Below, piece by piece: positions 60,905-61,883 of a stretch of DNA of 64,000 bases (the stretch's first letter is position 1; each line of letters opens with the position of its first letter). Location of the stretch: assembly GCF_013348805.1 (NCBI RefSeq), contig NZ_CP054690.1, positions 4,154,001-4,218,000 on the forward strand, read 5' to 3'. The stretch comes from Rhodococcus sp. W8901 (GTDB lineage Bacteria > Actinomycetota > Actinomycetes > Mycobacteriales > Mycobacteriaceae). The notes beneath the pieces were generated by a model. That model did no database searches, was not told the origin of the DNA, and was given only the letters and a program-made list of their open reading frames with translations. The position numbers and the translations under genes were made by a program.

Positions 60905-61348
60905 TCACGCGTCCGGATCGGCGATGCGAGGGAGGTGCACGCCGACGGCCAGGCATCGGTCGACCACAGTGTCGGCGTGGCCGGGCCGCACCTGCAACAC
61001 GATCGACCCCGGCACATCGCCCACGGCTTCGGCGAACCAGGCCAGCTCCGAGACCTGCTCGCCCAGCAACGCGTCGGCGTCGAGGACGAACACCACGGGG
61101 TCGGGTCCGACGGTGTCGCCGATCTCGCCGAGGCACTCGTCGAACGCGTCCTTGTTGCGGCCGAAGTAGTACGGGAACTGCAGTGCGGCCGCGAACTCGT
61201 CGAACAGGGCCGGCACGGTCGACATCCGTCGTCCGCGCACGTGCCGCACCGGACGCCCGGCCGCGCGCAGGTCCTCCTCGATACCCGCCGCCCGGCCCCG
61301 ATCCGTCACCAGCAGGGACAGTCCGCGCGGGAACCCGGGTGTCATCAC
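60905..61348 (-). CDS. Barstar family ribonuclease inhibitor
   Basis: 147-aa barstar-like protein. The core '[20 protein letters not shown]' followed by DECLGEI corresponds to the barnase-binding helix of barstar, with D67 and E71 in the positions of the two inhibitory acidic residues and C72 following. It is longer at the N end than the 89-aa Bacillus barstar, a common shape in actinobacteria. GTG 61348 (ATG at 61345 is an alternative) with GAGG upstream; the RNase gene ends 13 bases before. The likely role is to neutralise that RNase inside the cell. Confidence 0.85.
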
Positions 61349-61361
61349 AGCGTCCTCGTCA

Positions 61362-61883
61362 TCAGCGCATCCTCACGAATGTTTCGTAATGGTCCGAGGT
61401 GTACCACGCGGAGCCGTCGTCACCGGTGATGATGCGTTCGGCGTCGCGACCCCGGCCGCTCTGCTTCCGGTTGACGTCCCACTCCTGGTAGCGGACCTTC
61501 TGACCGCTGTCGGACTTGCCGGGCAGCCGGCCCTCGTGATTGCCGAACACCCGCCCGCCCTGCGTGCCGGGTGCGTCGGCGGGCGGCCAGCTGCCGGCGT
61601 CGATCGCGGCCAGCGTGGTCCACACGTACTCGGGGACGGCGCTGTTCGCGGCCTTCTTCGCCGGGCTCGTGGTGGCGGTCGGGCTGGTGGTGGTCCTGGT
61701 ACTGGTGGTAGGGGTGGTCTTGGTGCCGGACGCGGCGACGCCGCTCGTCACCGACGTGACCGAGGCTGCGGCCGGTGCCGTGTCGTCTCCCCCGCTCTGC
61801 GTCCCGAGGACGATCGCCACGGCGAGGCCGACGATCGCCACGAGCAGCGCCAGCAGCGAGTTCTTGGACTTCGGTGACGCCAT
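61362..61883 (-). CDS. Membrane-anchored/secreted guanyl-specific ribonuclease (barnase/Sa type)
   Basis: 173 aa. N-terminal uncleaved or slowly cleaved signal-anchor (about 9-27), a Ser/Thr/Ala-rich spacer (33-80) and a C-terminal N1/T1-type RNase domain (82-173). Catalytic residues are in place: E134 in 'YQEWDVNRK', R150 in 'RDAERIITGDDG' and H165 in 'YTSDHYETFVRM'; 'GGRVFGNHEGRLPG' is the family loop. The ATG shares one base with the xthA stop (TGATG) and the barstar gene follows, so toxin and inhibitor are co-transcribed. Confidence 0.87.
   Translation of the reverse strand: MASPKSKNSLLALLVAIVGLAVAIVLGTQSGGDDTAPAAASVTSVTSGVAASGTKTTPTTSTRTTTSPTATTSPAKKAANSAVPEYVWTTLAAIDAGSWPPADAPGTQGGRVFGNHEGRLPGKSDSGQKVRYQEWDVNRKQSGRGRDAERIITGDDGSAWYTSDHYETFVRMR

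Follow-up and report, generated by a model that had tools for sequence, protein, structure and literature searches.

A Barnase-Family RNase with a Predicted Membrane Anchor and Its Barstar Partner Between xthA and trpS in Rhodococcus sp. W8901

Introduction

Barnase and barstar are a textbook pair, known from work on a soluble enzyme that is secreted and the protein that inhibits it. Barnase is exported, barstar is cytosolic, Glu73, Arg87, and His102 of barnase have catalytic roles, and the barstar family is known for tight binding. Here we describe a pair of this kind in the chromosome of Rhodococcus sp. W8901 (NZ_CP054690.1), within a stretch of 64,000 nucleotides that we refer to as the window. 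The window pair resembles the Bacillus amyloliquefaciens proteins (PF00545 and PF01337) in its RNase fold and catalytic residues and, in the inhibitor, in D35 and an acidic residue at D39. It differs in several respects. The enzyme is predicted to be held in the membrane and has His in place of R59, the barstar is 146 aa long rather than 89–90 aa and keeps neither W38 nor T42, and the two genes lie side by side in a run that extends from xthA to trpS. RNases Sa, Sa2, and Sa3 of Streptomyces are also related. RNase Sa3 is the top-scoring solved sequence for our family profile (E 2.9e-12), but it groups with the type-A RNases, across a branch (100/99) from the window clade.

Related domains also occur in polymorphic toxins. 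The paper on these toxins (PMC3482391) describes Tox-Barnase paired with Imm-Barstar and suggests that simple barnase–barstar pairs might be an incipient form of the toxin–immunity order. The window locus has a related RNase domain and the same order of toxin then immunity, but it carries no known delivery domain or immunity array, and no swapped tip is seen across the species compared. The closest annotated counterpart is in the RefSeq record NZ_LR134467.1 of Tsukamurella tyrosinosolvens, which lists the same gene set: an MFS transporter, a "ribonuclease domain-containing protein," a "barstar family protein," exodeoxyribonuclease III, trpS, and yhjD. Unlike in the window, exonuclease III comes after the pair, and the names given are at the family level only, with no function. 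Among the matches listed in our literature search, in which subscription journals were thinly covered, no paper dealt with this tethered pair, linked barstar to trpS, or related barstar to P-loop folds. The RNase and barstar families are already known; what appears to be new is the tethered form, the gene overlap, the recurring locus, and the long barstar.

We lean toward reading the window pair as a tethered extracytoplasmic RNase with a cytosolic barstar guard, and hold that statement as a whole with moderate confidence. Our confidence in its anatomical part is higher, and the biological role is the most uncertain part of the explanation. A tethered pair that recurs at one locus in Mycobacteriales and has been cleanly deleted more than once offers natural strains in which its purpose can be probed.

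Results and Discussion

Gene order and junctions

The minus strand of the window carries a run of genes in the order MFS transporter, xthA, RNase, barstar, trpS, and yihY. This agrees with the sequence-only reading of the window that preceded this analysis, which had placed the pair in one minus-strand run with repair and tRNA-synthetase genes. All on the minus strand, the exonuclease III-like xthA (61883..62686; PF03372, E 7.1e-34) is followed by the anchored barnase-family RNase of 173 aa (61362..61883), the barstar-family inhibitor of 146 aa (60905..61345, from ATG 61345), trpS (59853..60890; PF00579, E 2e-76), and a gene for a YihY/YhjD-like membrane protein (58813..59838). The last is the recurring next gene in the gene order of relatives; at its position, the T. 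tyrosinosolvens record is annotated yhjD. The stop codon of xthA overlaps the ATG of the RNase in a TGATG, and the ATG of trpS begins 14 nt past the barstar stop, a spacing also found in the 10 other Prescottella loci that were fetched.

The gap between the RNase and barstar genes had been read as 13 bases, counted to GTG 61348. That start is one codon early. Since barstar proteins of relatives align from ATG 61345, the next codon, the gap is 16 nt, and this ATG sits behind an apparent partial 17-nt repeat. To place this junction among others, we used 80 named loci, a subset kept from 385 confirmed ones, 75 of which have a barstar. The RNase stop and barstar start overlap in 67 of these 75 (gap of −1 in 38, −4 in 26, and −7 in 3, the last three also carrying an ATG at −1), while the gap is 0 or more in 8. 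The window is thus an exception to the usual start of barstar on the RNase stop. It retains the ATG that overlaps the RNase stop, where relatives start their barstar, but this ATG now reads a putative mini-ORF of five codons, MTRTL (61345..61362, minus strand). The mini-ORF stop in turn overlaps ATG 61345, and two TGATG overlaps bridge the RNase stop and the barstar start. Nine loci (the window and 8 named ones) have a gap of at least 0, and in 7 of these it is at least 10. In four of the seven (the window, L099, L114 from a TTG, and L158), the stop of such a mini-ORF shares 1 or 4 bases with the barstar start. The mini-ORF was considered as a selected relay and then dropped. Where two genes overlap, an indel at their junction would frequently yield the same arrangement by itself, and for this reason we claim no selection for it.

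A separate promoter, together with no co-occurrence of the two genes in relatives, had been named beforehand as something that would speak against the proposal. A scan of 58800–64000 found no sigma-70-like site (0.2 expected), although so weak a scan says little for an actinobacterium. Three terminator-like sites were found in the same interval (1.8 expected), none of them on the minus strand between xthA and trpS.

A barnase-family RNase with a predicted anchor and a spacer

The RNase is a member of the barnase/RNase N1 family, with a match to the Pfam Ribonuclease family (PF00545) that is far beyond chance (61.4 bits, cut-off 24; E 1.2e-16). It is the sole PF00545 match at E ≤0.001 in the 5.71-Mb genome. 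In a phmmer search of solved structures, a barnase chain was matched at E 4.2e-9, with E73, R87, and H102 of barnase aligned to E134, R150, and H165, the residues that the sequence-only reading had called intact. We aligned 40 sequences, adding to the window 39 others that were chosen for spread from among the 80 named loci. The equivalents of E73, R83, R87, H102, and Y103 are invariant in 40/40, among them window residues E134, R146, R150, and H165. The position of R59, which is His116 in the window, is variable (Arg in 16/40). The catalytic domain comprises residues 84–173 (61365..61634, minus strand), and its predicted structure has the barnase-family fold, with block-mean pLDDT of 90–98 from residue 81. 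NCBIfam models matched the RNase only far below their cut-offs and the barstar not at all, and PADLOC matched neither protein.

Ahead of the catalytic domain lie a predicted anchor and a spacer, as had been proposed. The basic N-terminus, MASPKSKN, is followed by a 20-residue hydrophobic stretch that is the predicted membrane anchor (residues 9–28; 61800..61859, minus strand). The Ser/Thr/Ala-rich spacer (residues 29–83; 61635..61799, minus strand) is predicted to be flexible; Ser and Thr make up 41% when measured over a 61-residue stretch. The AlphaFold2 model has a helix at residues 9–26, a low-confidence linker (block-mean pLDDT of 52–63 over residues 21–80), and, from about residue 81 on, a domain predicted with confidence. 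In relatives, the anchor can take another form. At 15 of the 80 named loci (10 in Tsukamurella, 3 in Rhodococcus, and those in Tomitella and Antrihabitans), our script detected a lipobox where the hydrophobic stretch ends. That the same enzyme comes with two kinds of anchor, helix and lipobox, suggests that what is conserved, and what matters, is its retention at the membrane's outer face. The helix-form RNases may instead carry a cleavable signal peptide.

Some loci depart from this picture or add to it. A lipobox in Dietzia (L143) was missed by the script and spotted by eye. Two loci of genus g8 and some Nocardia loci away from trpS appear by eye to have ordinary signal peptides. At one locus (L079, in genome G003), the domain is present and the start-codon filter found no anchored RNase frame; this genome is 79% complete, and a sequencing error is possible.

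The orientation of the RNase bears on whether the pair might be an intracellular stress toxin–antitoxin system, with the RNase facing the cytoplasm and freed upon loss of barstar. Genes that overlap or lie close, neighbors involved in repair and translation, and an inhibitor from a tight-binding family would all suit such a system. We nevertheless regard it as very unlikely. The basic MASPKSKN ahead of the helix predicts that the C-terminus is outside, the lipobox forms in relatives would be expected to be exported, and the toxin gene comes first.

The barstar and its contact residues

The partner had been called a barstar, and it matches PF01337, likewise far beyond chance, with 53.2 bits (cut-off 23.4; E 3e-14). 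N- and C-terminal extensions flank the barstar core (residues 31–118), and the predicted structure has the barstar fold. The best barstar chain in the PDB was found at E 1.7, ranked behind unrelated chains, when the barstar sequence was used alone, and at E 0.00078 when a 27-row barstar profile was used. The inhibitory acidic positions were said to be kept, which holds only in part. D35 corresponds to D66, which is Asp in 40/40 sequences, and D39 corresponds to E70, which is Glu in 26/40 and Asp in 14/40. The position of E76, E106 in the window, varies and is Glu in only 15/40. The position of W38 is Asp in 37/40 and that of T42 is Thr in 1/40. A DxxxD motif is given for Imm-Barstar in PMC3482391, and its counterpart here is D66xxxE70. 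The barstar may bind and block its partner RNase, as judged from the residues it keeps. The 24-residue contact segment is identical in 6 of the 7 Prescottella sequences compared, and the seventh has one Phe changed to Leu. Such constancy is what a house pair should show; in private immunity, variation would be expected.

The model of the window barstar also resembles the core of AAA+ proteins, with a sandwich that extends across the whole predicted chain. We consider it doubtful that the long barstars of this family are P-loop-NTPase-like sandwiches without a nucleotide site, either lost or never had. Barstar would then be a stripped-down relative of AAA+ proteins turned RNase inhibitor, with a core corresponding to AAA+ strands 2–4 and an N-terminal strand and helix that restore strand 1. 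Homology between barstar and AAA+ at the sequence level was tested and is not supported. A Walker A motif occurs in 0/76 barstars; AAA_22 matches were found for 3 of 40 barstar members (best E 0.0025); and hhalign comparisons of barstar with AAA+ gave probabilities of 1.4% and 0.1%, the 0.1% value being not above four controls. If the likeness does reflect descent, barstar gains an origin.

Distribution and co-inheritance

Prescottella is the Rhodococcus equi group, and 14 of its genomes were compared, including that of the window. The RNase is present in 11 of them, and the barstar is present in the same 11, adjacent each time. Over a broader sample of 201 genomes from the window's GTDB family, an RNase was matched in 112 and a barstar in 104. 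Of the 125 RNase matches, 108 are followed on the same strand by a barstar at a distance of up to 700 nt, so the co-occurrence in relatives that the sequence-only reading had proposed as a check is seen. The 17 RNase matches without a Pfam barstar comprise all 15 of genus g3, which is probably Corynebacterium, one of g12, and one of g22; conversely, 29 barstar matches have no adjoining RNase match. Five of the 80 named loci, all in Nocardia (L140, L146, L154, L156, and L161), have no barstar within the locus stretch examined; these are window-side RNases that lie away from trpS. Together with the barstar-less matches, they indicate that the enzyme does not always have its inhibitor next to it.

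Our first idea for g3 was that its RNases lack an inhibitor, and this did not hold up. Two of the six g3 loci read (L084 and L088) have an ORF of 98–100 aa directly downstream, one of which is a sub-threshold Barstar match (E 0.012) and the other unmatched. By eye, no inhibitor ORF adjoins the RNase at the other four, and a custom barstar profile gave no match in the g3 loci searched. The RNases of L084 and L088 carry two cysteines.

The locus itself recurs across several genera of Mycobacteriales, and Rhodococcus erythropolis (L155) is among the species with the pair. Downstream trpS is found in 23 of 30 window-type loci with flanks (20 from other genera and 10 from Prescottella). Among the 80 named loci, trpS is found up to 7 kb downstream in 55, only an xthA-like gene is found in 12, and neither is found in 13, with some contigs ending early. 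Co-expression with trpS had been called unexpected; the recurrence of trpS at 55 of 80 loci, along with a constant 14-nt spacing in 11 Prescottella loci, weakens that surprise. Twenty trpS loci were also drawn from one g3 genome and from 19 genomes in which no RNase was matched; at 16 of these loci, xthA is upstream of trpS on the same strand.

A tree of the RNase domain clusters largely by genus, and the nearest RNase is that of P. defluvii (87% identity over 95 columns). Across the 10 other pair-bearing Prescottella loci, identity to the window is 58–71% for the RNase (83% in one partial match; the spacer is included elsewhere), 69–84% for barstar, 90–95% for xthA, 86–95% for trpS, and 80–93% for yihY. 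Within the genus, the pair changes more quickly than xthA and trpS, a pattern compatible with both conflict and relaxed constraint.

Losses of the pair

Three of the 14 Prescottella genomes (L170, L171, and L172) lack both genes, and in these xthA and trpS are directly joined, 56–89 nt apart. The same scar remains in all three, consisting of the last 10 barstar codons and the stop. The scars match the window at 28, 27, and 27 of 33 bases, values that were not reached in 5000 shuffles for each. A tree of three neighbor proteins requires two changes, the number that its starred branches also force. The scars and the tree together indicate that both genes were removed together, at least twice. 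One of the three (L171) retains an ATG at the RNase start position.

Repeated clean losses inside a genus are also what would be seen if the pair were a tolerated, decaying leftover in the xthA–trpS interval. We give this explanation very little credence, less than any other considered here. The catalytic residues are kept in 40/40 sequences, the frames are open, the stop/start overlap is mostly maintained, and the pair is found in many genera.

Related domains as toxin tips

The branch (100/99) that splits RNase Sa3 and the type-A RNases from the window clade's side of the domain tree also places other proteins on that side: three Rhs tips, which form their own group (99/90), a PPE tip, and a binase segment. 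The tree has few columns and a long-branch warning, binase sits on a very long branch, and finer placement is unsafe. Six of the eight proteins matched in plasmid records are Rhs proteins, the best sharing 44% identity across roughly half the query. Three Rhs genes were fetched; directly behind two of them a barstar is annotated, and behind the third is a hypothetical protein. In a mycobacterium-like genome, a PPE protein (L066:2653-6218, minus strand) combines PF00823 with PF00545, and the RNase domain is its C-terminal tip. A PE-like ORF, identified by eye, lies ahead of this gene, and two barstar-like ORFs lie behind it. One of these was scored by Pfam, and both were matched in the barstar search of the family genomes. 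The whole resembles a type VII-style toxin cassette. The pair is a possible source of such Rhs and PPE tips.

These relatives bring up the contact-dependent killing that the sequence-only reading had offered as one role. The tethered RNase would be passed to, or shed onto, neighboring cells as an antibacterial weapon, and barstar would be the immunity protein. An immunity-type gene does lie directly downstream of the window RNase, in the order of toxin then immunity; related domains tip Rhs proteins and a PPE protein with two barstars; and the pair changes more quickly than its neighbors xthA and trpS. We consider a weapon, the main rival reading, possible but on balance unlikely. No Pfam domain other than Ribonuclease passes its cut-off in the window RNase, leaving no trafficking or stalk module; the rest of the protein is anchor and spacer, with no known delivery domain. 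There is no immunity array beside the window pair. All 11 pair-bearing Prescottella species genomes have the same RNase domain. The invariant catalytic residues, the near-identical contact segment in the seven Prescottella sequences, and the grouping of the domain tree largely by genus also argue against it.

Proposed function

The other role suggested at the outset, wall-side RNA turnover, stays in the lead, and a tethered RNase guarded by a cytosolic barstar could work as follows. The xthA, RNase, and barstar genes would be translated in sequence through their overlapping or nearly overlapping starts and stops. The RNase would be exported with its basic N-terminus staying inside, and a single hydrophobic helix, or a lipid anchor in some relatives, would keep it in the membrane. 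The flexible spacer of about 55 residues would let the guanyl-type RNase domain reach into the envelope and cut RNA arriving at the cell surface, either for RNA scavenging or in defense against foreign RNA. Barstar made alongside would cap any RNase that folds before export. The analysis shows the families, the catalytic and inhibitory residues, both predicted folds, the gene order, the stop/start overlaps, and the joint inheritance and loss of the two genes; we infer the topology, the translational coupling, the RNase activity, and its inhibition.

Other barstars and an unusual record

The T. tyrosinosolvens record NZ_LR134467.1 (L190) is labeled as a plasmid; its trpS, exonuclease III, and pair genes follow the order seen elsewhere in Tsukamurella. 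It may be a mislabeled piece of chromosome or a second copy. The genome of the window has further barstars. A second one (L080, C1:2472500-2480500) lies behind an Rhs-like ORF identified by eye, and it is probably a decayed immunity gene, since it has an in-frame TAG. A third barstar domain is part of a 338-aa ORF (L081:3462-4478, minus strand) with a transposase-like ORF nearby (6407-7741, by eye), and a similar long barstar form occurs in another species (L082).
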